The position numbers and the translations under genes are program-made. The notes beneath the pieces are model-generated. The model was not told the origin of the DNA. It worked only from the letters and a program-made list of their open reading frames with translations, and did no database searches. 46,237 nt of DNA from Sandaracinaceae bacterium (GTDB lineage: Bacteria; Myxococcota_A; Polyangia; Polyangiales; Sandaracinaceae). This document shows, in pieces, positions 2,589 to 22,699 of the stretch; within the stretch, counting starts at the first letter, position 1, and each line of letters begins with the position of its first letter. Where the stretch lies: the NCBI GenBank assembly GCA_040218145.1, contig JAVJQK010000080.1:1-46237 (forward strand). Direction: 5' to 3'.

Positions 2589-4757
2589 GTGTCGCTGTCC
2601 GCCACCCTCGTCGCGTGCGCGGAAGGCGACCCTCGTGGCGCCCCCGACTGCATGAGCGAGGGCACGTGCGTCGACGCGGCGCCCTGCCTCGAGGGCGTCT
2701 GTGAGGAGTCGGACGCGGGCGTCGCGCCTCCCGACGCCGGCCCAGAGCCCTGCTGCGCGGACGGCGGCGAGAGCTCGCTCGACGGCGGCGTCCCTGCGCC
2801 GGACGGCGGGGACGACTGCGGGCCCGCGTGTGCGTGCGCGGCCCCGACGGGGTCTTGCAACTTCACCGCCCTCGCGATGGGCGCTGCGCATGGCTGCGGA
2901 GTCGACGTGAGCGGCTCGGTGCTCTGCTGGGGATCGAATCTGCAGGGCGCCACGGGGCCATCGCCTGGCCTCCACGATGGGCGAATCGCCGTGGTGCCTG
3001 GCGTCGTCGACGCGGTGGAGGTCGCCGCAGGTTCGGTCCACACCTGTGCCCTGGAGCGCGACGGCGACGTCCTCTGCTGGGGCCGCAACCAGCACGGCGA
3101 GCTCGGACGCGGAGCTCCCTATGGGGATGAGCCGCGGCCGGAGGCGGCGCGCGTCGATCTCGCCGAGGCCATGGTGGGGATCACCGCCGACGGGTTCCGG
3201 ACGTGCGCGTGGTCGACCGGGCCCGGGGGAGACGTCTACTGCTGGGGCGGCCCACCGTCCCGGATCTCGCCGCAGGCGATGGGCCTGCCCAACACCGCGC
3301 AGGCGTGCGTGGACGAAGAGATGCTCTGCGTGCTGGACGACGATGGCATCACACGTTGCGTGGAGCACGCGTCCACCGGCGCGCCCGCCGTCGTGAGCGG
3401 GCTAACCCGCACGGTGGGCCTGGCCTGCGGGGGCACGAGTCGATGCGCGATCGACGACGAAGGCAGCGCCCGCTGCTGGGAGCGACGCGCCGCGCCCGCG
3501 CTGGACCGCGACCTCGCCGACGCCCGGAGCGTCGCCCTGGACTGGCAGCGCTGTGTCGCTCGCGGCTCCGGCGTCGCCTACTGCCGCGGCCGGACGCATT
3601 CGCGGCTCGTCTCGGTGACCGAGCCCCTGAACCGCGTCTTCACGGCCGGGACTGGCGCGATGGCGCTGAGCGAATCGGGTCGCGCCTACGCGTGGGGAGG
3701 CCCCATCACCCAACCCTCCTTCGCGGGGCGGCCCGTGACGGCAGACCTCCCGGTGGACCCGGGCCCCCGCGACGTGACCGCCGTCGTCGTCGGCGATGGG
3801 ACCTGCGCCACCGACGCGGCCGGTGAGACCACGTGCTGGCGCGACTCCACCCCCGCTCCCCTCGGCGGCCCGCGACCCATGGAGCGCATCGAGCTCTTCG
3901 AGCGGGGGCATGGCTGTGGCGTGCACGCGAGCAACGCGCATTGCTGGGGAGAGAACCGCTTCGATCGGCTCGGCGACTCCACGCCCGGAACACGAGCGCC
4001 CACCCCGGTCACCCTGCCCGCGTCCGCCGGCTCGGTGGTCAGCGTCTCGGTCGCCCGCAGCTTCGCCTGCGCCCTGGACGACCTGGGGGCCGTCTACTGC
4101 TGGGGATCGGTCCCCTCCGTGGGCCCGACGGCGCCCCGAAGGGTAGTGGTCGAAGGCGTGGCACAGGTGGCGAGCACCGACGGCGTGATCTGCGTCCGCC
4201 GCACGGACGGCACCGCGCAGTGCTGGGGCACGGGCCCGATCGGCAACGGCGCGGCGGCGTCCAGGGATCCGGCCACCGTCAGCGGGTTGAGCGGCGTGAT
4301 GGACCTCGCCATCGGGTCCTCGCACGCCTGCGCCGTCCTCGACGACGGAAGCGCGCGGTGCTGGGGCCAGAGCTCCTGGGGCGCGCTGGGTGACGGAAGC
4401 CGCGCCGACCAGCGAGTCGAGGCGCTGACTCCCGTGCGCGTCCTGGGCATCACCGACGCCGTGAGCGTGGCGGCCGGCGGCGACACCACTTGCTTCCTCC
4501 GGCGCGGCGGCGCCGTCCAGTGCACGGGGCAGCGCCCAGGCGACGGCCACGGCCTCGCCCGCGGCGTCCCCGTGCCCGTACCCGGCCTGACCGACGTGGT
4601 GGAGCTGGCCGCGGGCATCCGCGCGGTCTGCGCGAGGACGGGGCGCGGCGAGCTGCGCTGCTGGGGAGAGGTCGCCGCGTTCCGCACGCCCAGCGCCCCG
4701 TGTCTCGAAGCCCGGCGAGAGCTCGAGGAGGCCGAGGAGCTGCTGTGCGCGCCCTGA
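2589..4757 (+). CDS. RCC1-repeat lipoprotein
   Basis: The 722-residue protein consists of about a dozen repeats of the RCC1/BLIP-II type with the signature G-x-x-H-x-C-A-L then V-x-C-W-G-x-N, which fold as a beta-propeller. It begins with a lipobox (LVAC, Cys10) followed by an Asp/Ala/Gly/Pro-rich Cys-containing linker. It should therefore be exported and lipidated. Such propellers usually bind proteins or surfaces; no enzyme site is visible. The GTG at 2589 leaves a signal peptide only nine residues long. The frame is open upstream and encodes KSRSAFAVLYVSLSATLVAC, a normal basic-plus-hydrophobic lipoprotein signal, so translation probably starts earlier, for instance at a CTG near 2532. Paired cysteines in nearly every repeat suggest disulfides outside the cytoplasm. 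Confidence 0.8.
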   Translation: MSLSATLVACAEGDPRGAPDCMSEGTCVDAAPCLEGVCEESDAGVAPPDAGPEPCCADGGESSLDGGVPAPDGGDDCGPACACAAPTGSCNFTALAMGAAHGCGVDVSGSVLCWGSNLQGATGPSPGLHDGRIAVVPGVVDAVEVAAGSVHTCALERDGDVLCWGRNQHGELGRGAPYGDEPRPEAARVDLAEAMVGITADGFRTCAWSTGPGGDVYCWGGPPSRISPQAMGLPNTAQACVDEEMLCVLDDDGITRCVEHASTGAPAVVSGLTRTVGLACGGTSRCAIDDEGSARCWERRAAPALDRDLADARSVALDWQRCVARGSGVAYCRGRTHSRLVSVTEPLNRVFTAGTGAMALSESGRAYAWGGPITQPSFAGRPVTADLPVDPGPRDVTAVVVGDGTCATDAAGETTCWRDSTPAPLGGPRPMERIELFERGHGCGVHASNAHCWGENRFDRLGDSTPGTRAPTPVTLPASAGSVVSVSVARSFACALDDLGAVYCWGSVPSVGPTAPRRVVVEGVAQVASTDGVICVRRTDGTAQCWGTGPIGNGAAASRDPATVSGLSGVMDLAIGSSHACAVLDDGSARCWGQSSWGALGDGSRADQRVEALTPVRVLGITDAVSVAAGGDTTCFLRRGGAVQCTGQRPGDGHGLARGVPVPVPGLTDVVELAAGIRAVCARTGRGELRCWGEVAAFRTPSAPCLEARRELEEAEELLCAP

Positions 4758-6884: not shown

Positions 6885-9800
6885 ATGACGAAGAGCGAGG
6901 ACGCGGGGCTCCCGTCGGGGCTGTACGACGAGATCATCACGCGCGCGCTCGAGCGCCGCTTGGAGACCGACGGGCTCGTGCACGAGCGCGTCTCCCTCAG
7001 CCCGGACACCGCGTCGGAGCCGCTCGCCCGGTACGTCTATCGGTTCGCCTCCTCGCTGCTCTCCTCGGTGAAGGGCAAGGACAAGGAGCGCATCGCCAAG
7101 CAGGTGGAGCTGACCAACCAGTTCCTCCAGTGGCTCTCGGGCCCCGACGGCGCGGCCGAGGAGGACCAGGTCACGGCCGAGCGGCTCCTGCAGGTGCACC
7201 GCCAGGGCGACGCGCGCCTGGGGACCGGGCAGGTGCAGCGGCCCTCCATCCCGCTGCGGCACAGCGACCTCATCGTCAACGGCCCGAAGGACCTGCGCGT
7301 GGGCCGCGAGATCCAGCACGAGCTCGCCTCGGCCGACCGGGTCGACGTGCTGGTCTCCTTCGTGAAGTGGAGCGGCTTCGTCGAGCTGCGCGACGCCCTG
7401 CGCGCGTTCAGCGACCGACACGGCGGCGCGCCCCCGCTCCGCGTGCTGACCACCACCTACATGGGCGCCACCGACCACGAGGCGCTCGACGCGCTCATCG
7501 AGCTCGGCGCCGACGTCCGCGTGAACTACGACACCCGGCGCACGCGCCTCCACGCCAAGGCCTGGCTCTTCCACCGCGAGACCGGCTTCTCCACCGGCGT
7601 CATCGGCTCGTCCAACCTCTCCTACGCCGCGCTCCGCGACGGCTGCGAGTGGAACGTCCGCCTCTCCAACGTCGACAACCCCGCCATCCTCAAGAAGTTC
7701 GAGGCGACCTTCGAGCAGTACTGGGACGAGGCCGCGTTCGAGCCCTACGACCGCGAGCGCTTCATCAAAGTGCTCGCCGCGCGCCGCAGCTCCCAGCTCG
7801 ACGCGCTCGCCGCGGTCGTCCGCCTGCACCCCTACCCGCACCAGACCGCCGTGCTCCAGGCGCTCGAGGCGGAGCGGCTCAACGGCCACAACAAGAACCT
7901 CGTCGTCGCGGCGACGGGCACGGGCAAGACCGTGATGGCCGCGCTCGACTACAAGGCCCTGTGCAAGCGGCTCGGCGGCCGCCCCAGCCTGCTGTTCGTC
8001 GCGCACCGCCGCGAGATCCTCACCAAGAGCCAGGCGACCTATCGCGCCGCCCTGGGCGACGGGAACTTCGGCGAGCTGCTCACCGGCAGCGACAAGCCGC
8101 TCGTCGGCCGCCACGTCTTCGCGAGCATCCAGTCCCTGCACGGCCGCCGCCTCGAGGACCTCGCGCCCGACGCCTACGACGTGGTCGTCGTCGACGAGTT
8201 CCACCACTCCGAGGCGGCCACCTACACCGCGCTGCTCAACCACCTCGACCCGAGAATCCTCCTCGGTCTCACCGCCACCCCGGAGCGCACCGACGGCCAG
8301 TCCATCCTCCACTGGTTCGGCCACCGCGTCGCGGCCGAGTCGCGCCTCTGGGACGCGCTCGACCAGGGCCTGCTCGTGCCCTTCCAGTACTTCGGCGTCG
8401 ACGACAAGACCGACCTGAGCCAGGTCGACTTCCGCGGCGGCCGCTACAGCGTCGCCTCCCTCGAGAAGGTCTACACCGCCGACGAGCACCGCGCGCGCCA
8501 CGTCCTGCGCGCCCTGTCCGAGCGCGTGCGCAACCCCGTGGAGATGCGCGCCCTCGGCTTCTGCGTCTCGGTCAAGCACGCCGCCTTCATGGCCGCCTTC
8601 TTCAACCGGCACGGCCTCCCCGCCGTCAGCGTGACCGGAGACACCCCCACCGCCGCGCGCGAGGCGGCCGTGAAGCAGCTCGCGGCCGGCGAGCTCTGCG
8701 CCATCTTCACCGTCGACGTCTTCAACGAGGGCGTCGACATCCCGTCGGTCGACACCGTGCTCTTCCTGCGCCCGACCGAGAGCGCCACCCTCTACCTCCA
8801 GCAGCTCGGCCGCGGCCTCCGCCTCCACGAAGACAAGAGCTGCCTGACCGTGCTCGACTTCATCGGCCGCGCGAACCGGAGCTTCCGCTTCGACCGCCGC
8901 TTCCGCGCCCTGATGGGCGGCGGCACCCGCGCCGAGGTGAGCGAGGCCGTAGAAGACGGCTTCCCGCGCCTCCCGTCTGGCTGCTCCATCCAGCTCGAGG
9001 AGGAGGCCCAGCGCTCCGTGCTCGAGAACATCAAGCGCACCCTCTCGAACTGGAGCGCCCTCGCGGAGGATCTCGTCGAGGACTGGCCGCTCGCCACCTT
9101 CCTCGAGCGCGCCGACGTCGACCTGCGCGAGCTCTACCTGACCCGCCGCTCCTTCTCGCAGCTCCGCCAGCAGCGCGGCTTCGTCCAAGACGTCGCCGAC
9201 AACGCCATCACCCGCGCGCTCCCGCGGACCGTGCACGTGGACGACGAGGACCGCCTCTCCCATTGGCGCTGGTGGCTCGACCAGGCGCGCCCGCCCAAGC
9301 CCGACCCGACCGACCCGAGGCAGGTCATGTTCTTCGCGCTGCTCGGCCAGTCGCGGCGCAAGCTCGACGAGCTGGGCGACTTCTTCGACGAGCTCTGGTC
9401 CGACCCCGTCCTGATGAGCGAGCTGCGCCAGCTCTTCGCGCTGCTGGACGACCGCCGCCGCAAGCCCACCTACGTCCTGCCCGGCCTCCCGTTCCAGGTC
9501 CACGCCACCTACAGCCGCGACGAGGTCAGCGCCGGCCTCGTCGAGGTGCGCAAGGGCAAGCTCCTGCGCACCCAGGGCGGCGTCTTCAAGTGCGACCGCC
9601 ACCGCTGCGACGTCCTCTTCGTCACGCTCGAGAAGGACGAGAAGGACTTCACCCCGACCACGCTCTACAACGACTACCCCATGTCCCAGCGCCGCTTCCA
9701 CTGGGAGACGCAGGCGCGCGTGGGGTCGCAGACGGGGCGCCGCTATCGCGAGCCGCCGGACGGGTGGCGGATCCTAATGTTCGCGCGGCAGGCGAAGAAG

Positions 9801-9950
9801 GACGAGCGCGGCCAGACGATGCCGTACCTCTTCCTCGGGCCGGTGCGCTGCGTGTCAGCGTCGGGGGACCGGCCGATCCAGATCGTGTGGGAGCTGGAGC
9901 GGGAGATGCCGGCGGCATGGTTCAGCGAGGTGAAGATTGCCGCGGGCTAG
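6885..9950 (+). CDS. PLD-like nuclease / SF2 helicase / DUF3427 protein
   Basis: The 1021-residue protein has three parts. Residues 130-290 contain one phospholipase-D-type HKD motif (His223-x-Lys225, LHAKAWLF, followed by GSSNLS), a nuclease signature. Residues 310-700 are a superfamily 2 helicase: motif I ATGTGKT with Lys348, motif II DEFH at 437-440, motif III LTATPER and motif VI QQLGRGLR from 639. The C-terminus from about 880 matches DUF3427 (YNDYPMSQRRFHWETQ, then a FLG/PV beta segment). Proteins with this layout occur in restriction and phage-defence neighbourhoods and are thought to translocate on and cut DNA. Codon use is extremely GC3-rich, like the chromosome background and unlike the following operon. 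Start: ATG at 6885. Whether it belongs with the genes at 10299-16235 is open. Confidence 0.85.
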   Translation: MTKSEDAGLPSGLYDEIITRALERRLETDGLVHERVSLSPDTASEPLARYVYRFASSLLSSVKGKDKERIAKQVELTNQFLQWLSGPDGAAEEDQVTAERLLQVHRQGDARLGTGQVQRPSIPLRHSDLIVNGPKDLRVGREIQHELASADRVDVLVSFVKWSGFVELRDALRAFSDRHGGAPPLRVLTTTYMGATDHEALDALIELGADVRVNYDTRRTRLHAKAWLFHRETGFSTGVIGSSNLSYAALRDGCEWNVRLSNVDNPAILKKFEATFEQYWDEAAFEPYDRERFIKVLAARRSSQLDALAAVVRLHPYPHQTAVLQALEAERLNGHNKNLVVAATGTGKTVMAALDYKALCKRLGGRPSLLFVAHRREILTKSQATYRAALGDGNFGELLTGSDKPLVGRHVFASIQSLHGRRLEDLAPDAYDVVVVDEFHHSEAATYTALLNHLDPRILLGLTATPERTDGQSILHWFGHRVAAESRLWDALDQGLLVPFQYFGVDDKTDLSQVDFRGGRYSVASLEKVYTADEHRARHVLRALSERVRNPVEMRALGFCVSVKHAAFMAAFFNRHGLPAVSVTGDTPTAAREAAVKQLAAGELCAIFTVDVFNEGVDIPSVDTVLFLRPTESATLYLQQLGRGLRLHEDKSCLTVLDFIGRANRSFRFDRRFRALMGGGTRAEVSEAVEDGFPRLPSGCSIQLEEEAQRSVLENIKRTLSNWSALAEDLVEDWPLATFLERADVDLRELYLTRRSFSQLRQQRGFVQDVADNAITRALPRTVHVDDEDRLSHWRWWLDQARPPKPDPTDPRQVMFFALLGQSRRKLDELGDFFDELWSDPVLMSELRQLFALLDDRRRKPTYVLPGLPFQVHATYSRDEVSAGLVEVRKGKLLRTQGGVFKCDRHRCDVLFVTLEKDEKDFTPTTLYNDYPMSQRRFHWETQARVGSQTGRRYREPPDGWRILMFARQAKKDERGQTMPYLFLGPVRCVSASGDRPIQIVWELEREMPAAWFSEVKIAAG

Positions 9951-10298
9951 CGATAGATCCAACCCAGGGGTTGACCTCACATGAGGCTACCTGTGGCCTG
10001 CGTTCGTTGAACGAAGTGGATGCGCGTCGTCTAAACTTCGGTACCCCAGCTGACCTGGAGCTGGGCGCCAAGACGTTTCGCCTATTCCGTGCCGTCTTCG
10101 GGGATCTCCAGGCTGTCCCTACGGCAGAGCCCCGAACTCAGATCGTGATAGGTTCTCGCCGCCTAGAATGGCGTCCCGGGCTCACCGGTTCGAAGGCTGG
10201 AGACAAGTGATGCTGAAACACGAGGCTTCCACGTCATGCGACGAGGCACGCATGGGGAGGCACGCGGGCCGCGCCAAGGGCGCCCCACCGAGGCCATC
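9951..10298. other. Gap between helicase gene and methyltransferase operon
   Basis: No gene is visible in these 348 bases. A small inverted repeat CCTCACATGAGG lies at about 9975-9986 within a TTGACC-containing stretch that could be part of a promoter for the operon downstream, but I cannot identify a matching -10 box. Base composition drops here compared with the helicase gene, so the junction between native-like and operon-like DNA lies in this gap. Confidence 0.35.
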
Positions 10299-11993
10299 AT
10301 GATCACGCGCGCAGCTTCAGAGCGAACTCGGTCCGAGACACCGGGGGACTCCTTCAGCTCTGCCGTAAGGCCGCTCGTGAACGGCCGAACGATCTCTCGC
10401 CAACGCCTCCTGGGGGCGTACTACACGCCGGACCCGATTGCGGAAGCGCTGGTTCGCTGGGCGCTCGGAGGGGCGCCAGGGAGGCTCCTCGACCCTAGCT
10501 TTGGCGGCTGCGCCTTCCTCGAAGCGGGCGCCAGGGTCATGGAAGAGATGGGGAGTACGGTTGGGGGGGAAATGGTCTTCGGGGTCGATGTCGACGCCGA
10601 CTGCATACGGCACGTCAAGAGGAGCTCCCGGCTGCGCGAGCGCAACTGTACGTTCGAGGACTTTCTCGCCCTTTCGCCGGCGGACCTACCAGGTGCACCG
10701 TTTCAAGCGGTCGTCGGGAATCCCCCGTATGTCCGGCATCACTGGGTGAAGGACGAGAAACGGACCGTGGCTCGCCGCATCGCCGACGAGAGCTCCGTCG
10801 TACTGGCGGAGACGGCGAGTCTCTGGGCTTACTTCGTGGTGCACGCGCTAGCCTTCATGGCAGAAGGCGGTCGTCTCGCGTTGCTGGTCCCCGAAGCGAT
10901 CCTCCAGGCCGACTACGCCGACGCGGTCCGAAGTGTCCTGGAGTCTAGCTTTCGCCGGGTGCGCCTCGTGCACCTACGCGAGCGTCTATTCGATGGCACC
11001 GATGAGCCTGTAGTGGTCGCTCTTGGGGAGGGGTTTGGCGAGCCCGGAACGCTTTCGGTCCACTCGTTGGACACCGCGGCCGAGCTAGAGGCGCTGTTGC
11101 GTGGCGTCGCGATCCCCGGGCCGCACACTACTGTCGCGAATGGCCGCCGTGTGCTTCCTGAGGCCCTCAAGGTCATGGAATCCGTGCAGGGCACGGGCCA
11201 GACTATGCGGTTCGATAGCGTGGCTAGCACTCGAATCGGAATAGTGACAGGTGCGAACAGCCACTTTATACGAACACAAGATGAGCTGGCGGACCTTGGC
11301 GTTCCGTCCAGAGCGCGCACCGGCATCGTGGCGCGGACGAAGTGGCTCTCCGGCCTCGAGTTTACGGAGGAGGACCACCACGCAGTGGCGAGGTCGGGCT
11401 GCAGAGCGTTCCTAGTACGACCTACCCCTGCGCTCGAGACCCGGCCCGGCATCGCGCGGTGGGTGGCGGAGGGAGAAGCCGCAGGCGTGCATGAGCATCA
11501 CCAGTGCGTGAGGCGGGAGCCATGGTTCAGGGTCAGCCTGCCGCCTCGACCAGATGCATTCGTGACGTCGACTCGGTTGGGTCCTCCGCTTCTGGTGCTG
11601 AATCGGACGAGCTATCGGTGCACTAATGCCCTCTATGCCGTGCGACTGAACCTGACCGACGCGGTTCTTCCCGAATGCATCGCACTCGGTTTCCTCACGA
11701 CATTCGTTGCCCTCTGGGCCGAACTGAATGGGCGCCGGTACGGCGGGGGTGTCCTCAAAGTCGATCTCGGGGCGCTCGCAGAGCTGCCCCTGCCGGTCGT
11801 ACCCGGGTGTGCTTCCTCGTTCGTCGCCGCCAACAATGCTCTACGGGAAGGCAAGGAGGAGCTCGCCCGCAACATCGCCGATCGTGTTGTCCTGCGGCAT
11901 GGACTTGGGCTCTCCCAGCGTGCGATCGATACCATGGGCCGCGCTCGCGAGGACCTGGTCCGGCAGCGGATTCCCGACGCGAAGGAGTCCTGA
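10299..11993 (+). CDS. N6-adenine-specific DNA methyltransferase (Eco57I/TaqI-like)
   Basis: The 564-residue protein has a class I methyltransferase core: GAYYTPDPIAEALV at about residues 39-52, AdoMet motif I LLDPSFGGCAF with Asp65, and the catalytic NPPY at 141-144 (GNPPYVRHHW), typical of N6-adenine enzymes of the gamma order. The C-terminal half (from about 290) resembles a TaqI/Eco57I-type target-recognition region. No PD-(D/E)xK or other nuclease motif is visible, so this looks like a modification subunit rather than a type IIG enzyme. Start: ATG at 10299 with GAGG six bases upstream; an in-frame ATG at 10236 would add 21 residues. It is the first gene of a four-gene operon and its stop is two bases before the next start. 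Confidence 0.8.
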   Translation: MITRAASERTRSETPGDSFSSAVRPLVNGRTISRQRLLGAYYTPDPIAEALVRWALGGAPGRLLDPSFGGCAFLEAGARVMEEMGSTVGGEMVFGVDVDADCIRHVKRSSRLRERNCTFEDFLALSPADLPGAPFQAVVGNPPYVRHHWVKDEKRTVARRIADESSVVLAETASLWAYFVVHALAFMAEGGRLALLVPEAILQADYADAVRSVLESSFRRVRLVHLRERLFDGTDEPVVVALGEGFGEPGTLSVHSLDTAAELEALLRGVAIPGPHTTVANGRRVLPEALKVMESVQGTGQTMRFDSVASTRIGIVTGANSHFIRTQDELADLGVPSRARTGIVARTKWLSGLEFTEEDHHAVARSGCRAFLVRPTPALETRPGIARWVAEGEAAGVHEHHQCVRREPWFRVSLPPRPDAFVTSTRLGPPLLVLNRTSYRCTNALYAVRLNLTDAVLPECIALGFLTTFVALWAELNGRRYGGGVLKVDLGALAELPLPVVPGCASSFVAANNALREGKEELARNIADRVVLRHGLGLSQRAIDTMGRAREDLVRQRIPDAKES

Positions 11994-11995
11994 TC

Positions 11996-14329
11996 GTGGC
12001 GAACTTCACCGTAGATACACATCTGTTCCGCGAGCTCGGCGAGCTCCTCGTTGGTCGCGATTCGACGGCGCTAATCGAGCTAATCAAGAACTCCTATGAC
12101 GCGGATGCAACAGAGGTCGTCGTACTTGGCCAGCATCTAAGCGAGCCCGATAAGGGATTGATTGTCATCACCGACAACGGAACCGGCATGACTCCGGGTC
12201 AGTTCGAGCGGGGATTTCTGCGCGTCGCCTCGCGACTGAAGGAGGACGGAGAGCGCAGGTCCCTGCTGCTAAAGCGGCGATATACTGGCGCCAAGGGTAT
12301 CGGGCGGCTCGCGGCCCACAAGTTGGCCCGGCTGCTCAACGTGGACAGCATTCCGCATCGATCTACCGACCGGAGCGCTGACGGAAAGGCCGTTAAAGCA
12401 CGTATCGATTGGGACGTTATCGAGACCTTCGAAACGCTAGACGACATCGCTGGCGACACGGCCGTTCGGGTACAACACAAGAAGGTGCCGCCGCGCGCGG
12501 CGAGCGGCACTACACTCCGGCTATCTAAGCTAAGGCGACGATGGACTGAAACCGAGCGCGCTCGCTTCTTTGCAGAGGTCCAGTCGTTCGCTCCGCCAGA
12601 CTTCCTCACGCGTCCTCTTCGGAAGTCCGTTCTTCCAGAGCCGCTTCTCTTCGACGCTCCCCTTGTTCGTGTAGCCGAATCTGACGGGCAGAAGTTCACG
12701 GTATCGTTGGAGGGGGAGTTCGCTTCCGGTGACGACTACTGGCGACTGATGGAAGATCACGCGTCTTGGGTCATCGAGATCAGATGTCGACCCGGTGACA
12801 AGACGGTCCAGTATGCAATTGCCCCAACAAAAACCACGTTGAAGACGCTGCCAGAGTCTCAGCGCTACGAGACAGCGCTGCCGCATCCTGCGCCGGGGGA
12901 GGGCCCGTTCTTCGACGCTCGCATCTTCCTTCGAGTTGGTCAGTCGTCGGTGAGGGGGGCACAACGTACTTGGATGAATCGGTCCAGCGGCGTTCGGGTG
13001 TACATGGAGGGCTTTCGGGTTCTGCCCTACGGCGAGCCGCTGAACGACTGGCTCAGAATCGATGCTGACGTAGCTCGTCGCACTCGGACAGACCGTCTAA
13101 GCCGTTGGGATCTGAGCGATCTCATGCATGAGGACGACAAGGACGGGCTTCTCACGGCGTTCCCCAACAGTGCCTACTTCGGCGGCGTATTTCTTACGTA
13201 TGAACACGCGGAGAACTTGCGGATGTTGGTGAACCGAGAGGGGTTCATACCTGAGGCTGGATATGATCACCTAGTACTGCTGGTACGCACGGGAATTGAT
13301 CTATGCTTGAGGGTCTACGCCGCAGCCTCATACCCGCAACGTAGGGCAAGAAAAGAACGTCGGGAGAAGAAGAAGCAAGGCAAGAAGAAGAACGCTAAGC
13401 ACTCCGATCTTATGCGGGCCGCGGCGACCCCGTTGTCGCTGCGAGAGAAGTTGCGCGAAGTAGCGGAGGTGCTGTCCAAAGCTCGAGCTCACGTTGTGGC
13501 GACTGCGGAGGGCCAGGAGGGCGCTGCCCTGGTCGAGAAGATCGAGAACACACTCGAAGACCTACAGAGCCAAGTTGATCAAGCCGACGAGATGATATCT
13601 GAGCAGTCGTTGCTGCGGGTACTCGCCTCGGTCGGGACCCAGATGTCAGCGTTCGTTCACGAAATCCGTGCGCTGCTCGGCGCGAGCCAGGCGGTCGAGC
13701 ACGCTGTCGAAAGCCTGACCTCGGACGGCGGACTCGCACGAGATCAGAAGAGGAGGCTGAAGAGAATTCAGCAGGCTATCGGCGATCTTCGGCGGGGGCT
13801 GGAGCGCGAGGCTTCCTACCTTACCGATATAGTTACTCCCGATGCTCGTCGCCGGCGTTCACGGCAGAAGCTCTTCGAACGACTCGACGTCGCCAGCCGT
13901 CTCCTCTCCAACGCCGCCCAGAGGCGGGGGATCCAGATCGAAAACTCGATTCCCCCCACCATCAAGTCACCGCCGATGTTCCCCGCAGAGCTCACGGCAG
14001 TCTTCACGAACCTGCTGAGCAACGCCGTTAAGGCAGCCGGAAAGGGTGGCCGAATCCACGCATCGGCGCACCATCGCGACGACGGCGCAGTCCGCGTGCT
14101 GTTGCAGAACACGGGCGATGCGGTGGACCTCGAACAGGGCGAGACTTGGTTCCGACCCTTCGAGTCGACGACAGCCGAAGTCGACCCGGTTCTGGGCCAG
14201 GGCATGGGCCTCGGCTTGCCGATCACCCGTCGCATGCTGGAAGACTACGGAGCCGAGATTCGCTTCGTTCCGCCTGACGACACTTCGTTCGCGACGGCCG
14301 TTCAGATCATCTTCCCCGGAGACAGGTAG
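11996..14329 (+). CDS. MORC/MutL-like GHKL ATPase fused to histidine-kinase-like core
   Basis: The 777-residue protein contains two GHKL-type ATP-binding modules. The N-terminal one has N-box Glu28/Asn32 (ALIELIKNSYDAD), G1 DNGTGM at 60-65 and G2 GAKGIGR at 98-104, as in Hsp90/MutL/MORC ATPases. A charged KERREKKKQGKKKN linker follows at about 450-465 and then predicted coiled coil. His555 in FVHEIRALLG resembles a histidine-kinase dimerisation/phospho-acceptor site. The C-terminal module has N-box NLLSNAVKAAG from Asn672, QNTGDA replacing the usual DxGxG, F-box FRPFEST and G2 GQGMGLGLP from 734. Start: GTG at 11996 with AAGGAG eight bases upstream. Prokaryotic MORC relatives are known in restriction-type neighbourhoods, which suits the methyltransferase upstream. 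Kinase activity is inferred only. Confidence 0.8.
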   Translation: MANFTVDTHLFRELGELLVGRDSTALIELIKNSYDADATEVVVLGQHLSEPDKGLIVITDNGTGMTPGQFERGFLRVASRLKEDGERRSLLLKRRYTGAKGIGRLAAHKLARLLNVDSIPHRSTDRSADGKAVKARIDWDVIETFETLDDIAGDTAVRVQHKKVPPRAASGTTLRLSKLRRRWTETERARFFAEVQSFAPPDFLTRPLRKSVLPEPLLFDAPLVRVAESDGQKFTVSLEGEFASGDDYWRLMEDHASWVIEIRCRPGDKTVQYAIAPTKTTLKTLPESQRYETALPHPAPGEGPFFDARIFLRVGQSSVRGAQRTWMNRSSGVRVYMEGFRVLPYGEPLNDWLRIDADVARRTRTDRLSRWDLSDLMHEDDKDGLLTAFPNSAYFGGVFLTYEHAENLRMLVNREGFIPEAGYDHLVLLVRTGIDLCLRVYAAASYPQRRARKERREKKKQGKKKNAKHSDLMRAAATPLSLREKLREVAEVLSKARAHVVATAEGQEGAALVEKIENTLEDLQSQVDQADEMISEQSLLRVLASVGTQMSAFVHEIRALLGASQAVEHAVESLTSDGGLARDQKRRLKRIQQAIGDLRRGLEREASYLTDIVTPDARRRRSRQKLFERLDVASRLLSNAAQRRGIQIENSIPPTIKSPPMFPAELTAVFTNLLSNAVKAAGKGGRIHASAHHRDDGAVRVLLQNTGDAVDLEQGETWFRPFESTTAEVDPVLGQGMGLGLPITRRMLEDYGAEIRFVPPDDTSFATAVQIIFPGDR

Positions 14330-14333
14330 GCCA

Positions 14334-15491
14334 ATGGCTGACGAAGACCTCCCCCGCATCCTTATCGTGGATGACGTCGACGCTGCGGAGCATGAGCTTG
14401 GCCTTGTCGATCGAGCGGGCTCGAGAGCGAAGCACCCGAACGAGGTAGAGGGAGGGGACCTTGACTGGGCTGATCTGGTTCTGATGGACTTTATGATCGA
14501 GTGCTGGACCGAGCGGGAAGAGGTTGACCAGGTCGGCCTTCGTCCACTCAATGGACTAGCGCTTTCGGCAGTTCTCCGCGAGCACGCCGACAGTCAGAAC
14601 GGCGACGACCACGACTACACGGCGTTCGCTATTCACACAGGCAAAGTTGAGAATGTCTCTCGACGCCTTCACACCTCGAACAAGGCAGCCCATGTGGTTG
14701 CCAGGCTCAACAACCTCGAGTGGGTGTTCGACAAATCAGATGGCTCGCGCTTCCAGCGCGCAGCAGAGTTGGCAGCGGCGGTCAAGCTTATCTCGAACTC
14801 TTGGCAAGAAGTCGAGGATGGTGGCGTCGAAGCTGCACTTGAGCGTCTCCTGGGCTTGGACGCCAGTGCGCTCTGGCGCTCACGCGCCTTTGACGACGTC
14901 GTGCTGTGCCAAGTGCCACTGTCCGCGTATTCTGCTGGCACAAACGGCTTGTTGTTTCTGCGGTGGCTACTCCACTCGATCCTGCCCTACCCGACCTTCC
15001 TCTGGGCGGAGCAGTGGGTGGCGGCGCGACTTCGGATCACTCCGTCGGCGCTGCGCAGCGTGCTTGACGGCGATTCGCCCCTGGCATCCGACCTCAAGGC
15101 CTGTCGCTACGGCGGAATCCTCGAAGGGTTCCTGGGCCCGCGATGGTGGCGCGCGGGTATTGAGCAGTACGCGTGGGGAGTCCGAGCTGACAGTGCCAGG
15201 GACCCGGATGTGTTCCATACGAAGCTAGAGGAGCGGGCGCGCACGGAATTGGAGCGGCTCTTGATTGCATCACCGGTGGTTTGCATCGGACGCGACCTGA
15301 CACCTGTCGACGAGCTATGCAGCATCGAGGACGCCGTTCGAATGGTGCCGGACCTCTGGCCCGCGTATGCGGGCACGGCATACGCGACGATCACAAGCGT
15401 TCTTGATGACCCTGAGTTCGCCGCGGTGGTCCACCCGCTCGACCGCGAGCGCGTCATCGCTGAGCGCGACGACGAGAACGTGGAGGAGTGA
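14334..15491 (+). CDS. Receiver-like protein with large unknown C-terminal domain
   Basis: The 385-residue protein starts like a response regulator: ILIVDDVD with the acidic pair Asp13/Asp14, and VLMDFMI with Asp52 as the candidate phospho-acceptor. The segment AFAIHTGKVENV could contain the switch Thr. The receiver is divergent: the loop between Asp14 and Asp52 holds an RAKHPNEVEGG insertion and the Asp52 strand is followed by an unusual acidic stretch. Residues from about 140 to the end are a domain I do not recognise, rich in Trp and Arg, ending in the acidic ERDDENVEE. The gene lies four bases after the GHKL/kinase gene, so a cognate phosphorelay is likely. No DNA-binding output domain is recognisable. 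Confidence 0.7.
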   Translation: MADEDLPRILIVDDVDAAEHELGLVDRAGSRAKHPNEVEGGDLDWADLVLMDFMIECWTEREEVDQVGLRPLNGLALSAVLREHADSQNGDDHDYTAFAIHTGKVENVSRRLHTSNKAAHVVARLNNLEWVFDKSDGSRFQRAAELAAAVKLISNSWQEVEDGGVEAALERLLGLDASALWRSRAFDDVVLCQVPLSAYSAGTNGLLFLRWLLHSILPYPTFLWAEQWVAARLRITPSALRSVLDGDSPLASDLKACRYGGILEGFLGPRWWRAGIEQYAWGVRADSARDPDVFHTKLEERARTELERLLIASPVVCIGRDLTPVDELCSIEDAVRMVPDLWPAYAGTAYATITSVLDDPEFAAVVHPLDRERVIAERDDENVEE

Positions 15492-15494
15492 GCA

Positions 15495-16235
15495 TTGGCG
15501 AACCTCTTCTTTCGACCAGACGAGCTCCTGTCCGAAATCGAAGCGCTTCGGCAACTGTGCGCCGGCTTCTTGGCCCCAGATTCGTTTCAACTTCAGGAGT
15601 TGGCTGGCGACATTCGCGGCCTGAAGGAGCAAAAGAGCGGAAGACTTACCTTGGAGATTCCCGAAGATCGGCCGTTGATGACCAAGCCGAGTGAAGGGCA
15701 GTTCGAGCGAGCACCACGCTCGTCTGGACGAAGTGTTGTGGCGAAGGTCACCGGGAAGTGGGACGTCAAGATCGTGAAGACCAAGGTTCCGGATCAGAGC
15801 CGGCCGAACAAGAAGGCAAGGGAGTTGCTTCTCCTGGACTTCGTTGATCGAGCATCGACGGTGATCCATGTCGTGGACGAGGGGGGCACCGACCCGATCG
15901 CCTGCTGGAAGATGGAGCTAGGCATTAGCAGTTCACCGGGATGCTTCTTCCACACGTTCGCTTCCGGCGATGCTAACTTCCCGGTTCCACGGCACCCGAA
16001 CCTTTTTCCGACACCGATGTCGGCGATTGGGTTCGTTCTGGGCGAGCTCTTTCAAGATGAGTGGGAGCAAGAGGTCTCAAAGGCCGGGTTCGATCCACCC
16101 CAGCGCTGGCGCTCGATCCAAAGCCGACGGCTACTGGCGCTGTTTGCTTGGCAGATGGAGCTTGCCAAAGCAGCCACTGCGAGCCCGTGGTATGCGATTA
16201 AGGCGGGGAAGCCGCTACCCAGCATATTCCTATGA
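15495..16235 (+). CDS. Unknown fourth protein of the methyltransferase/GHKL operon
   Basis: This predicted 246-residue protein has no family I can name. It starts at TTG 15495, three bases after the preceding TGA, with GGAGGAG six bases upstream; there is no nearby ATG in frame. The N-terminal third contains a helical segment and a charged SGRLTLEI stretch. The middle and end carry CWKMELGISSSPGCFFHTFA, then FPVPRHPNLFPTPMSAIGFV and LGELFQDEWEQ, which look like a conserved core with many aromatic and proline residues. No nuclease or membrane motif is seen. As the last gene of the operon it could be an effector or an adaptor for the receiver-like protein. Confidence 0.65.
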   Translation: MANLFFRPDELLSEIEALRQLCAGFLAPDSFQLQELAGDIRGLKEQKSGRLTLEIPEDRPLMTKPSEGQFERAPRSSGRSVVAKVTGKWDVKIVKTKVPDQSRPNKKARELLLLDFVDRASTVIHVVDEGGTDPIACWKMELGISSSPGCFFHTFASGDANFPVPRHPNLFPTPMSAIGFVLGELFQDEWEQEVSKAGFDPPQRWRSIQSRRLLALFAWQMELAKAATASPWYAIKAGKPLPSIFL

Positions 16236-16835: not shown

Positions 16836-17153
16836 TCAGTTCGTCGGCGCGACCGGGTCGACAACCGGCAGCGGCTCGTCGAGGTCGACCTCGGGCTCCT
16901 CTTCGCGGCGGCGCGGGCGGGTCTCGGCGCGCTGCTCGTCGAGGGGCTTCATCGCGCGTCGTCCTTGGGGTCGAGCTCGCCGGCGAGGACGCGGCCGTAG
17001 TCGATGGCGTCGGCGAGCTCGGTGGCGGCCTTCTGCAAGCCCGCGCTGTCGATGCTCTCCGGGAGGGTGTCGCCGACGCCGAGCGCGTCGTGCGGCTCCT
17101 GGATGAACGCGAGGTAGTCGGCGCCCGCGAGGGCCTCGAAGCCATTCGCCGGA
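16836..17153 (-). pseudogene. Frameshifted fragment of a second paralogue of the 17283-18095 gene
   Basis: The minus strand encodes FEALAGADYLAFIQEPHDAL, then ATELADAIDYGRVLAGELDP, related to the C-terminal third of the intact gene (ALLREAHDAY, YGRVLVGEL). After GELDPKDDAR the frame stops at 16949. The acidic Pro-rich tail continues in another frame (EEEPEVDLDEPLPVVDP), matching the tail of the intact protein (EEPETDIESPLPEVDP). So a frameshift separates body and tail, and the N-terminal two thirds are missing. Confidence 0.7.
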
Positions 17154-17222
17154 ACGGCCGCGTGCCACGGTGACCGCGACGTCGTCTGAGCGCGCCAGGA
17201 GGTGACCGGGGCGGGAAGAAGA

Positions 17223-17253
17223 AGAGGCCCCACCCAGACTTGCTGGGCGGGGC
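17223..17253 (-). terminator. Rho-independent terminator for the 17283-18095 gene
   Basis: Read on the minus strand, AGGCCCCGCCCAG and CTGGGTGGGGCCT form a long GC stem with a five-base loop, followed by CTTCTTCTTCC. It lies 30 bases after the stop of the minus-strand gene, where its terminator would be expected. Confidence 0.7.
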
Positions 17254-17282
17254 CTCGTGGGGGCTTCACTCGGGGAAGAGGC

Positions 17283-18095
17283 TCAGGCGTCGGCCGGGAC
17301 CGGCGCGGGCTCGTCGACGACGGGGGGCGGGGGGTCGACCTCGGGGAGGGGGCTCTCGATGTCGGTCTCCGGCTCCTCGGGCTCGCCGCCGCCGCCGCGG
17401 GCGCGGCGGGCGAGGGTCTCGCGGTAGGCGTCCAGGGGGCCGACGGCGCGGCGGAAGCGGGCCTCGCTCGCCTCGTCGCCGGGGACGAGCTCGCCGACGA
17501 GGACGCGGCCGTAGTTGGCGATGGCGTAGCTCAGGTCGGTGATCGAGTCGCGCAGCGCGGCCGTCTTGGGGTCGTCGTTGGCGTCGTGGCCCATGCCGAG
17601 GGCGCGGCCGTACGCGTCGTGGGCCTCGCGGAGGAGGGCGAGGTACTCGGGCTGGAGGACGGCGTCGAGCTCGGACGCCAGGCCGTCGCGGTCGATGCGC
17701 TGGAGCATGACGTCGGTCTGACCCCACTGCTCGTACGCGGGGAGGCGGAGGAAGCCGGTGCCGTCGGGGAACAGCTTCGCGAGGAGGACGGCCGCGCGCT
17801 GCGCGAGCTCGGTCGGGGTGAGCTCGGCGGCGGCCTCGAGCCCGTTGCGGATGGCGAGGGCGATGGTGTCCTCACGGATGTCGGAGGCGCGGATGCTCGG
17901 CGGCTCCGCATCGCTGCGCGCCATGAGGACGAGGCGGATGCCCTCGCCGGTCTCACGGACATGGCTGGCGGCGCGCCGCAGGGCGGCGCTCGGGTCGGGC
18001 GGGGTGACCTCGAGCAAGACGCGAGAGAGGAAGACGCCCGAAAGGGCGCTCAAGCGCGGCGGGCGGAGGTACTCGGACAAATCACGGCGATCCAT
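17283..18095 (-). CDS. Hypothetical protein, intact member of a local paralogue cluster
   Basis: The protein has 270 residues and no signal peptide or membrane segment. Residues 1-215 look helical and contain the conserved HDAYGRALGMGHDA and YAIANYGRVLVGEL motifs shared with two decayed copies downstream. The C-terminal 45 residues are acidic and proline-rich (EEPETDIESPLPEVDPPPP), probably disordered. The ATG at 18095 is taken as start because an upstream in-frame alternative at 18131 reads through non-conserved sequence. The gene is divergent from the EEP gene at 18731 and both could be controlled from the 41-bp repeat array between them. A terminator hairpin follows it. I do not recognise the family. 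Confidence 0.65.
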   Translation of the reverse strand: MDRRDLSEYLRPPRLSALSGVFLSRVLLEVTPPDPSAALRRAASHVRETGEGIRLVLMARSDAEPPSIRASDIREDTIALAIRNGLEAAAELTPTELAQRAAVLLAKLFPDGTGFLRLPAYEQWGQTDVMLQRIDRDGLASELDAVLQPEYLALLREAHDAYGRALGMGHDANDDPKTAALRDSITDLSYAIANYGRVLVGELVPGDEASEARFRRAVGPLDAYRETLARRARGGGGEPEEPETDIESPLPEVDPPPPVVDEPAPVPADA

Positions 18096-18329
18096 TCTGG
18101 ATTCTTTCCCGGAGAGAGCCGACTCGAGCACCGCGCCCGATGTGGTCCCCCCTGCGATGCGACTTCCATCGAGGCGTCTCCCCGCCGGTTTCGTCCTCGC
18201 GCCGATTTTTCTCGGGCCGTCCGCACGCGAGGACTGTCGACGGCGTTCGCGCTGGGCGGGCCCGAGTCCGATCGCTGTCCACGGTGTCCCGGAGGTACGT
18301 CGCGCAGTTCGAACGCTGGCCGCAGCGCT

Positions 18330-18596: not shown

Positions 18597-18730
18597 AAAC
18601 GCCGCGGATAGTGTTCCCAACTGCGCCCGCACAGCTTCGCGGGCGGCCACGCTCGATCGCGAGGCGCGCTCCGGGGACGCAACCGGCCGCGCGGAGCTCC
18701 GATGCAGCGCTCACCACGGGGAGGCGCGGC

Positions 18731-20140
18731 ATGGGATACGAGGAGCTGGCGATCACGGAGCGGGACGACGAGGGCGCGGCGCGGGTGAAGCGCCGGGTCG
18801 CGGAGGGGCTGCTGCGGCTCCGGCGGGGGTTGGACGCGCACTTCGCCCTGCCCTGCGACGACGGCGGCCCGGCGGCGCGCTCGCGCGTGCGGCTCGCGAC
18901 CTGGAACATCCGCGAGCTCGCCACGCGCAACAAGTATGGTCGCCGCCTCGACGACGCCTACTGGTTCATCGCCGAGGTCATCCGGCGCTTCGACGTGGTC
19001 GCGCTGCAGGAGGTGCGCGGCGATCTCGAGGCGCTGCGCCGCGTGCTCGAGCTGCTCGGCGAGGGCTGGGACTACCTCGCCACCGACGTGACCGAGGGCC
19101 GCCCGGGCAACGGCGAGCGCATGGTGTTCGTCTACGACACGCGCCGCGTGAGCTTCGGCGGCGTGGCCGGCGAGCTGACCCTGAGCGGAGGCCGCGTGCT
19201 GCGCGACGCCCGCGGGGTGGAGCTGAGCAGCGACGCGCCCCTCGAGCTGCGCTTCGACCGCCGCCGCGAGCTCCGCCTGCCCGACGGCGTGGCGTCACGC
19301 GCGGGCGAGTCCGGGCTCGAGACCGCGGAGGGCGTCTACGTGGACCTGCCCGAGGGCGCGACCCTGCGTCTGCCGCCGGGCACGCGCCTCCGCCTGCCGG
19401 CCGGCACCCCCGTCCGCCGTCGCGGCGCGCGGCTCAGCCTCGGCCGCCGCGTGCGCCACGTGCTCGAGCGCGGCCAGCGCTTGCAGATCCCGCGGCCGGC
19501 CCGCGCCGACGGCGTGCTCCAGTTCGCGCGCACCCCGTACTACGTCTCGTTCCGCGCCGGGTGGCTGAACGTGATCCTCTGCACCGTGCACATCTACTAC
19601 GGCGAGGCCGGCGCGCGGAGCGCGGGCATGGAGCGCCGCGTGGCCGAGATCGAGCGCCTCACCGAGCTCCTCGGCCAGCGCGCGCGCGACGAGGGCGACA
19701 GCGACTCGCGCAGCCTCTTCGTCCTGCTCGGCGACTTCAACATCGTCGGCAAGGGCCACCGCACCATGAAGGCCCTCGAGCGCCGCGGCTTCGTCATCCC
19801 CGAGGGCATCCGCGAGATCCCCGCCGGCACCAACGTCGACCGCACCAAGTTCTACGACCAGATCGCCTACCACCGCCGCCCCGACCGCGTCCCCCGCGTC
19901 CGCCCGCTGCGCGCCGGCGTCTTCGACTTCTTCGAGCACGTCTACCGCACGAGCGACGAGGCGTCGCTCGCGGCCGAGATGCGCGCGGAGCAAGCCGCGT
20001 CCGGCTCCCGCGCGAGGCCGTGGCCCTACGCGACCTGGCGCACGTACCAGATGTCCGATCACCTCCCCATGTGGGTGGAGCTGGAGACCGACTTCGCCGC
20101 GGAGGCGCTGCGGGGGATGCTGGTCGATATGCTCGAGTAG
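18731..20140 (+). CDS. Endonuclease/exonuclease/phosphatase (EEP) superfamily protein
   Basis: The 469-residue protein carries the DNase I/APE-like metal site: TWNI with Asn59, LQEV with Glu94, GDFN with Asp335/Asn337, and SDHLPMW with Asp443/His444. These residues bind Mg and the phosphate in this fold. Substrates in the family include DNA, RNA, inositol phosphates and lipids, so the substrate cannot be told. The core is about 100 residues longer than usual because of an insert at about 150-270 containing LRLPPGTRLRLPAG-type short repeats, probably extra beta strands. No signal peptide is visible. The ATG at 18731 follows GGGGAGG. Two broken copies lie downstream at 20615 and 22472. The gene lies 135 bases after the palindromic array. 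Confidence 0.85.
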   Translation: MGYEELAITERDDEGAARVKRRVAEGLLRLRRGLDAHFALPCDDGGPAARSRVRLATWNIRELATRNKYGRRLDDAYWFIAEVIRRFDVVALQEVRGDLEALRRVLELLGEGWDYLATDVTEGRPGNGERMVFVYDTRRVSFGGVAGELTLSGGRVLRDARGVELSSDAPLELRFDRRRELRLPDGVASRAGESGLETAEGVYVDLPEGATLRLPPGTRLRLPAGTPVRRRGARLSLGRRVRHVLERGQRLQIPRPARADGVLQFARTPYYVSFRAGWLNVILCTVHIYYGEAGARSAGMERRVAEIERLTELLGQRARDEGDSDSRSLFVLLGDFNIVGKGHRTMKALERRGFVIPEGIREIPAGTNVDRTKFYDQIAYHRRPDRVPRVRPLRAGVFDFFEHVYRTSDEASLAAEMRAEQAASGSRARPWPYATWRTYQMSDHLPMWVELETDFAAEALRGMLVDMLE

Positions 20141-21008: not shown

Positions 21009-22388
21009 TCAGCGCAGCATGTTGAGCTGCACGATGGGCGACGAGTCGCTCTCGGGCTGGGCCTGCGACCAGATGACGTCGAGGTCACCATCGGAGTCCA
21101 GGTCGGCGAGCGTCGCCATGCCCCCCACCGCTTCGTCGGACACCAAGACCGGCTCGAGGAACCGCCCGGTGCCATCGTTGCGTGCGACCCTCCCATCACT
21201 GAGCAGGAGGTCGGGGTAGCAGTCGCCGTCGAGGTCTCCGAGAGCGGCCGTCTCGGCCCGGAGGGCTTCCCCGACCAACCCATGATGGATGAACTGATGG
21301 CTACCGTCGTCCTGCGTCAGGGCCACGAGGAACCCACCCGACCCCATGGTGCAGTTGAGCGCCAGCACCAGGTCACGGTCGCCATCTTGGTCGAGGTCCG
21401 CGACGAGGCCTAGCCGATGCCCAGAGTATGCACCGCACTCGCTCATCGCAAGCGAAGCAGTCCGCGTCCAGGTCCCGCCGGGGCCACTCATGCCGAGCCA
21501 GAGGGTGTCTCTGGTGAAGATGAGGACATCCTCCACCCCGTCTGCGTTGACGTCGCCGTCGAGCAGGGCGAAGAACTCGTAGTCCGCGCCGAAAAGTGCG
21601 GGCCCATCGACCTGCTCGCCCCTGACGTGATCACTCTCGACGACGAAACGATAGAGCGGTGCCGAGCCACCGGCGCCGGCCTTGGCCCAGAGCGATCGCG
21701 ACTCGAAGAGACGAGCGAACGTGAAGCCGGAAAAGTCATTCACTCCGTTCGTGACCCTGTACCACCCCGCCGAGCCCGGCATCGGAAACCACCGGACCTC
21801 GTGTGACTCGTATCCCGACGGGGCGTATCGAATAGCGACGAAGCTCGAGGGGTCGCCGTCGGTCGAGCCGATGAGGACTGGCATCCCGTTCTCCTCTACG
21901 CCGACCAGCGGCTCGTGCAGCTCGGGAAGCGCAACGAGCTGACGCCCAGGGCCATCCAGGCCCGCACCCGACCAGGTCCCGACCCGAACCTCTCGAGGAC
22001 TGTTGCCCGAGAATGAGACGAGCTCCAGCATCCCGTCCCCGTCGAGGTCCGTCACAGTGGCAATCGAGCCGCCGAGGTTCGTCGGGATGCCAGCACCAAG
22101 GGCGAGCGTGCCTGGCGCTTCGCAGCGAGGGGTCGCGGCGTCTGGGTCGGCCCCGGCGTCACCTTCGGCGGCGCCGTCGGGTCCCGGCCCCGCGTCGGGT
22201 CCCGGAGCCGCCTCGCACATGCACGGTCCGTAGCTGCCATCCCGGTCGCAAACCTGCGCACCGGTCAGCCCGTTCGTGCAGGTGCACGCCACAGACATTC
22301 CTGCGGTGCACGCGGGGCCGCCCGAGCATGCTCCGAGGGAGACCGCCGTCACAACCAACAGACCTACCCGAGGCCAGACGTTCGCCAT
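21009..22388 (-). CDS. FG-GAP/VCBS-repeat lipoprotein
   Basis: The 459-residue protein starts with a lipoprotein signal (VGLLVVTAVSLGAC) and a Cys-rich then Asp/Ala/Gly/Pro-rich linker. The body has at least five calcium-binding FG-GAP loops: DLDGDGMLE, DVNADGVED, DLDQDGDRD, DLDGDCYPD and DLDSDGDLD. These repeats form beta-propellers in surface and adhesion proteins. ATG at 22388 is chosen because the signal peptide starts there; the longer upstream frame has no support. The gene lies on the opposite strand between two pieces of EEP pseudogene, so it looks inserted into, or left between, duplicated EEP copies. Confidence 0.85.
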   Translation of the reverse strand: MANVWPRVGLLVVTAVSLGACSGGPACTAGMSVACTCTNGLTGAQVCDRDGSYGPCMCEAAPGPDAGPGPDGAAEGDAGADPDAATPRCEAPGTLALGAGIPTNLGGSIATVTDLDGDGMLELVSFSGNSPREVRVGTWSGAGLDGPGRQLVALPELHEPLVGVEENGMPVLIGSTDGDPSSFVAIRYAPSGYESHEVRWFPMPGSAGWYRVTNGVNDFSGFTFARLFESRSLWAKAGAGGSAPLYRFVVESDHVRGEQVDGPALFGADYEFFALLDGDVNADGVEDVLIFTRDTLWLGMSGPGGTWTRTASLAMSECGAYSGHRLGLVADLDQDGDRDLVLALNCTMGSGGFLVALTQDDGSHQFIHHGLVGEALRAETAALGDLDGDCYPDLLLSDGRVARNDGTGRFLEPVLVSDEAVGGMATLADLDSDGDLDVIWSQAQPESDSSPIVQLNMLR

Positions 22389-22471
22389 CTCGAGATGCTG
22401 CCAGCCGCGGGTCTCTGATGCAAATCCGATAGCGCTCGTCAGGCCCCCGGCGGCGTCGCTCGCGTCCACCC

Positions 22472-22699
22472 GTGCGCGCCGGCGTCTCCGACTTGTTCGG
22501 GCAGGTCTACGGCGGCGAGGAGGAGGCGACGCTGGCGGCCGACATGTGCGCTGAGCGTGCTGCATCCGTCATGGCGGCCCTGGTCCTACGCGACGTGGCG
22601 CCGCACCGGATGTCCGATCACCTCCCGATGTGGGTGGAGCTGGAGACCGACTTCGCGGCGGAGGCGCTGCGGGGGATGCTGAAGAGCCCGACGGTCTAG
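22472..22699 (+). pseudogene. C-terminal fragment of a diverged EEP paralogue
   Basis: The fragment encodes RAGVSDLFGQVYGGEEEATL and ends MSDHLPMWVELETDFAAEAL, matching the C-terminal 75 residues of the EEP protein, with the Asp-His pair kept. Between, the DNA equivalent of PWPYATWRTY survives as TGGTCCTACGCGACGTGGCG but in another frame, so two compensating indels have scrambled about ten codons. It overlaps the residue range already present in the 20615-20902 piece and is much more diverged, so it comes from a different copy. Confidence 0.75.

Follow-up and report, generated by a model that had tools for sequence, protein, structure and literature searches.

Two GHKL folds in one chain: a MORC/MutL-like ATPase joined to a histidine-kinase core in a mobile, methyltransferase-linked four-gene cassette

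The closest described proteins belong to a sister family in which HATPase_c_3, HEF_HK and HATPase_c domains are combined in one chain and encoded beside a receiver-like Response_reg_2 protein in R-M neighbourhoods (Bellieny-Rabelo et al., 2021; PMC8011034). These authors proposed a two-component system for the family, whose signalling would control R-M systems, and their description ended at domain prediction (PMC8011034). ParaMORC ATPases have been reported in R-M operons (Iyer et al., 2008; PMC2292703). In VcSduA, which is of the Shedu type with a GHKL domain and was earlier classed as paraMORC3, the GHKL domain is needed for phage defence and the substitution E27A abolishes activity (PMC12137116). 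HATPase and REC are also listed among the domains of predicted, unvalidated defence systems in a predictor paper, the legend of which leaves it unclear whether the same family is meant (PMC13092281).

The window, a stretch of 46,237 nucleotides from a Sandaracinaceae bacterium, contains four adjacent genes on the plus strand that invite comparison with these systems. The first (10236–11993) encodes a predicted N6-adenine DNA methyltransferase of the M.Eco57I-like type with the motifs NPPY and LDPSFGGCAF, which is matched by the Pfam profiles N6_Mtase (2.3e-12), Eco57I (8.2e-10) and M_Eco57I_C (1.1e-8) and by the PADLOC profile MTase_II (7.1e-79); NPP[YF] is present in every cassette methyltransferase homologue examined. 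The second gene (11996–14329; GTG start, no internal stop) begins 2 nt past the stop of the methyltransferase gene and encodes a protein of 777 residues, the dual GHKL protein. The third (14334–15491) encodes a response-regulator-like protein of 385 residues and the fourth (15495–16235) a protein of 246 residues with a conserved PGCxFH...PRxP...ELFQ..W pattern.

Pfam places HATPase_c_3 at residues 24–143 of the dual protein (E = 3.5e-15) and HATPase_c at residues 665–763 (E = 4.1e-18), and because both domains are present in all 35 close and all 51 wider relatives, the dual-domain match is far above chance. The chain consists of an N-terminal MORC/MutL/Hsp90-like ATPase and transducer (S5-like) module (residues 1–445; 11996–13330), assigned from HATPase_c_3, structure and invariant residues; a linker with a predicted long helix or coiled coil (residues 446–540; 13331–13615), assigned from composition and model helices; a DHp-like helical hairpin (residues 541–613; 13616–13834), assigned from model helices and containing the candidate His555 (codon 13658–13660); and a histidine-kinase CA (GHKL) domain (residues 620–777; 13853–14326), assigned from HATPase_c and containing Asn705 (codon 14108–14110). 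A preliminary description of this DNA had proposed that a single chain joins a MORC-like ATPase to a histidine-kinase core, and Pfam, the AlphaFold2 model and comparison with the PDB agree on this architecture. The motifs that it listed are all found in the translation: Glu28, Asn32, DNGTGM (60–65) and GAKGIGR (98–104) in the first module, and His555, NLLSNAV (672–678), QNTGDA (704–709) and GQGMGLGL (734–741) in the second. The lysine-rich linker that it described is a property of this copy (40% Lys + Arg) but not of the family, in which values among homologues range from 4 to 40%.

The dual protein was modelled as a monomer with AlphaFold2 using 35 homologues, which gave a mean pLDDT of 79. 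The pTM is low (0.56), and for this reason the relative placement of the two modules is not fixed by the model. The model and its comparison with the PDB yield two separate GHKL folds, as opposed to the single fold that would have contradicted the preliminary description. Residues 1–445 match the ATPase-CW region of mouse Morc3 (Z = 19.7 and an r.m.s.d. of 3.8 for 304 residues) and MutL (Z = 18.4), with Hsp90 proteins also among the matches. Residues 520–777 match the DHp and CA domains of the photoreceptor kinase 4gcz (Z = 18.9 and an r.m.s.d. of 3.6 for 245 residues), as well as many other kinase structures containing this pair of domains, and the CA domain considered separately matches the ThkA CA domain (Z = 19.6) and MprB (Z = 19.7). 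The linker and DHp region is modelled as helices 479–503, 507–575 and 582–613; in the monomer model His555 lies within the second of these, with the third following it, in an arrangement like a DHp hairpin.

Scanning the genomes of 84,980 species gave 362 relatives, and 80 of these were kept. The close set comprises 35 full-length homologues, the window protein included, which group together on a single branch (SH-aLRT 100) spanning ten phyla, and the tree of these homologues is out of step with taxonomy. In annotations, plasmid-borne members of the clade bear no more specific names than 'ATP-binding protein' and 'hypothetical protein'. The catalytic elements of the N-terminal module are Glu28, Asn32 and the DxGxG and GxKGxGR motifs; Glu28, Asn32, Asp60, Gly62, Gly64, GxKGxG and Arg414 are invariant in 35/35, as are His555, Asn672, Asn676 and the glycines of the G2 box in the C-terminal part of the chain.

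His555, put forward in the preliminary description as a candidate phospho-histidine, is supported as such: it is retained in all 35 close and all 51 wider relatives, is followed by Glu or Asp at position 556 in each of the 35, is located in a DHp helix and occupies the same column as the H-box histidine of ZraS in a phmmer alignment. Residue 705, in contrast, separates the clade from other proteins, being Asn in 35/35 clade members versus Asp in the 44 other dual-GHKL proteins of the wider alignment. The G1 box of the clade reads Asn-Thr/Ser-Gly throughout (35/35), with the second glycine of DxGxG absent. Among HATPase_c kinases of the window's genome, the 30 with the highest scores all have Asp at the G1 position, a control that consists of the best 30 HATPase_c loci rather than the full kinase complement and is biased to canonical kinases. 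Since Asn is found at this position throughout the clade and Asp elsewhere, the altered G1 box is a fixed trait of the clade and not a lesion of the window copy; it is possible that it serves as a base-specificity or activity switch. With neither the usual Asp nor the second glycine in its G1 box, the CA domain could be severely impaired in binding nucleotide, which counts against the phosphorelay that we propose below.

Compared with orthodox histidine kinases, the second module agrees in its H, N and G2 boxes and in its DHp and CA folds but departs from them in the G1 box, where DxGxG is replaced. The earlier suggestion that QNTGDA may mark a sensor and not an active kinase is correct insofar as the motif is real and its Asn is fixed in the clade, but a sensor-only reading is weakened by the preserved His555, Glu556, N box, G2 box and partner phosphorylation residues. 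Because these features are all preserved, the sequences favour working phosphotransfer from the dual protein, with the Asn G1 box leaving doubt. The change could instead mean that the C-terminal module is a pseudokinase scaffold: a DHp/CA platform that responds to nucleotide or serves a structural role, and that recruits the regulator through the receiver fold with no flow of phosphate. The clade-wide replacement of the G1 Asp and the loss of the second glycine are what would be expected of such a scaffold; however, a dead kinase would also be expected to have lost some of His555, the acidic residue at 556, the N and G2 boxes and the Asp/Asp/Asp/Lys set of the receiver, all of which are kept, and an asparagine can still hydrogen-bond the purine ring. 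We therefore regard a pseudokinase as unlikely.

For phosphotransfer, the reading that we prefer, the protein encoded next to the dual protein had been named as the potential recipient, and its features make it a plausible phospho-acceptor. Profile–profile comparison relates the regulator to a set of 20 genuine receiver domains from this genome (E = 3.8e-7). In its model (pLDDT 91.8) the receiver domain (residues 4–163), which is the part that the listed PDB matches mainly span, resembles the HupR receiver (Z = 13.1, 129 residues). All 38 regulators retain Asp13, Asp14, Asp52 and Lys134, Thr/Ser102 is kept in 32 of the 38, and the product of 14334–15491 combines the receiver fold with the acidic pair, the phosphorylatable Asp, the Thr/Ser and the Lys. 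Asp52 (codon 14487–14489) is the predicted phospho-acceptor. The C-terminal region of the chain is also conserved; it includes an RWW motif and opens with several helices. A PglZ-like output, raised by Foldseek matches between the regulator and PorX, was set aside at r.m.s.d. values of 12–18.

The family of the fourth protein comprises 26 sequences, and its conserved core is homologous to fourth-gene products in distant cassettes (E = 3.1e-8). Relatives of about 245 residues are encoded after the regulator-like gene at L025:8609-9355, L063:13285-14019 and L064:6531-7250, and an H..Q/H...PRxP...W core is common to the distant clades. The fourth protein has no match in Pfam, PADLOC or NCBIfam. 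Neither it nor the whole regulator could be identified as a known nuclease, with no convincing match in Pfam, NCBIfam, PADLOC or the PDB sequences. A joint alignment treating the regulator and the fourth protein as one read-through chain was discarded, since MAFFT put the rows of the fourth protein on the regulator. The helices at the start of the regulator C-terminal region leave room for an unrecognised DNA-binding fold, and thus for an ordinary regulatory two-component system in which the phosphorelay has no direct part in restriction but governs the transcription or abundance of the linked methyltransferase, akin to the R-M-controlling signalling proposed for the sister family (Bellieny-Rabelo et al., 2021; PMC8011034). 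We consider such a system quite improbable, as none of 32 regulators contains a Pfam DNA-binding domain above the cut-off, and the output region is conserved along with the fourth protein over many phyla, a pattern that suits a complex better than a local transcription factor.

The alternative that we prefer, a phosphorelay acting within the cassette itself, draws on how regularly the four genes occur together. In 36 close loci (window included), some of which end at contig ends, Blast identified the dual protein at 36, the regulator at 34, the N6 methyltransferase at 32 and the fourth protein at 26. Other clusters at these loci are shadow frames of the cassette genes or are too few to count, such that no further gene family recurs, with the exception of a short gene in the fourth position at six actinobacterial loci. 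The genes are ordered either methyltransferase–dual–regulator–fourth or dual–regulator–fourth–methyltransferase. The same four-gene arrangement is also present in distant clades, where the regulator family matches that of the close clade end to end (E = 7.2e-14). Two loci count against this reading of the cassette: L036 and L042, the latter near a contig end, contain a dual protein without detectable partners. In Bradyrhizobium sp. Ghvi (L062, 9962–13422) the dual GHKL and regulator genes are each split into two frames, and the locus is either decaying or misassembled.

Upstream of the cassette in the window, a plus-strand gene (6885–9950) encodes a PLD–SF2 helicase–DUF3427 protein that is matched by a PADLOC Type IV methyl-directed restriction enzyme profile (791 bits). 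It was rejected as a cassette member: none of the 35 close loci has a detectable homologue beside it, with partial hits at two distant loci only. Its GC3 is 0.98, versus 0.69–0.73 for the four cassette genes, and because of this difference the cassette was probably acquired and the helicase lies outside the unit. Elsewhere in the window, two minus-strand neighbours (16949–17269 and 17283–18131) encode similar products (EPHDALGVGDTL... and EAHDAYGRALGMG...), apparently through partial duplication of an uncharacterised protein; 18611–20140 has an Exo_endo_phos match; and the region is flanked by genes for an RCC1-repeat protein (2589–4757, plus strand) and an FG-GAP repeat protein (21009–22565, minus strand).

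The cassette is also found on Rhizobium and Clavibacter plasmids. Directly 3' of the copy on the Rhizobium plasmid pTH2c (L138) is a GIY-YIG nuclease gene (12118–13047) without a counterpart at the other cassettes examined. Viral or proviral contigs also contain the dual protein together with the regulator and the methyltransferase, in several cases with the fourth gene as well, and the complete four-gene cassette was noted in the IMG/VR viral/proviral contigs L144, L145, L146, L148 and L177; it thus seems to be carried as cargo by phages or prophages. A non-immune epigenetic or DNA-repair module, making methylation-responsive adjustments to DNA topology or repair with no role against foreign DNA, would suit the resemblance of the N-terminal module to MutL and Hsp90 and the lack of a recognised nuclease, but is very improbable given a sporadic occurrence over ten phyla, plasmid and viral or proviral carriage and a foreign composition, which a mobile defence cassette fits better.

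The simplest reading of the locus is a cytoplasmic phosphorelay with a MORC/MutL-type ATPase as its sensor. By a small degree, we think it probable that the dual protein is the sensor of a mobile, methylation-linked cassette of restriction or defence type that is run by such a relay. The computed support comprises the two GHKL folds, the location of an invariant His555 in the DHp, a receiver fold that keeps its catalytic residues, the linkage of the cassette across ten phyla and its lateral mobility. In the proposed mechanism, the N6 methyltransferase would mark self DNA. DNA, or a complex carried on it, would be bound or clamped by the N-terminal MORC/MutL-like ATPase, which would also dimerize in an ATP-dependent manner. 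Rearrangement of the clamp would be relayed via the helical linker to the DHp/CA module, such that clamp closing by the first module would control the kinase module, which would then phosphorylate His555 or cease to dephosphorylate it. The phosphate would pass from His555 to Asp52 in the receiver of the next gene's product, and the output would be delivered by the C-terminal region of the regulator together with the fourth protein. We infer DNA sensing by the N-terminal module from its kinship with MORC, MutL, paraMORC and HgiDII-type restriction enzymes, and a defensive role from the methyltransferase and the mobility of the cassette; phosphotransfer and coupling between the modules would complete the scheme.

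A more specific form of this scheme is tentative, and we would sooner doubt it than assert it: a MORC-type DNA clamp might directly gate a His-to-Asp phosphorelay in restriction or defence, converting recognition of unmodified DNA into a diffusible phosphorylated regulator, with the Asn G1 box making the kinase clamp-dependent or altering its use of nucleotide. Searches of the cassette recognized no nuclease, which counts against a role in restriction. Environmental sensing is the best-known role of two-component phosphorelays, as DNA topology and repair are of MORC/MutL ATPases. With both machineries placed in one polypeptide beside a DNA methyltransferase, in a mobile cassette that is conserved, it becomes a testable question whether a DNA clamp can drive a histidine kinase.

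Among known systems, orthodox histidine kinases (ZraS, YF1 and HK853) share with the dual protein the DHp and CA folds and the H, N and G2 boxes, whereas the dual protein has NTG in place of DxGxG in its G1 box and an input domain that is itself a GHKL ATPase. VcSduA is likewise a GHKL ATPase, but its output is a fused PD-(D/E)xK nuclease rather than a kinase core and a receiver. MORC and paraMORC1–5 have in common with the dual protein an N-terminal GHKL and S5-type module, intact ATPase motifs and R-M-type operons; where paraMORCs contain nuclease, TIR or unknown domains, however, the dual protein contains a histidine-kinase core. The MORC-specific GhXhhpXXRhl motif of the S5 domain is present in none of the 35 close relatives, and a related motif, GxRVYMxGFRVxPYG, is present in 28. 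The closest curated family to the N-terminal module is that of the BbrUII/HgiDII restriction enzymes (NF050001), which is related over about 185 N-terminal residues (E = 1.4e-20), but the match is confined to residues 4–188 and its 73 bits fall short of the curated cut-off, which is 550.

The HEF_HK/Response_reg_2 pair (PF19191/PF19192) is the most similar in organization, with HATPase_c_3, DHp-like helices containing an invariant His-acidic pair and HATPase_c in a soluble chain, an adjacent receiver-like protein and an R-M neighbourhood. Membership of this family was rejected by profile searches: PF19191 matched none of the 35 close relatives at E = 0.1 and nothing in the genome of the window, and PF19192 matched none of 32 regulators and nothing in that genome. 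The clade also differs from the pair in its N6 methyltransferase (mainly C5 in the sister family), in Asn rather than Asp in the G1 box, in its conserved fourth gene and in its separate position in the tree. No experimental study of the cassette or the clade was found in the open-access literature searched. The fusion architecture itself has been known since the sister family was described in 2021 (PMC8011034); the present clade falls outside both Pfam profiles and combines this architecture with Asn in the G1 box, a methyltransferase of the N6 type and a fourth gene that is conserved.
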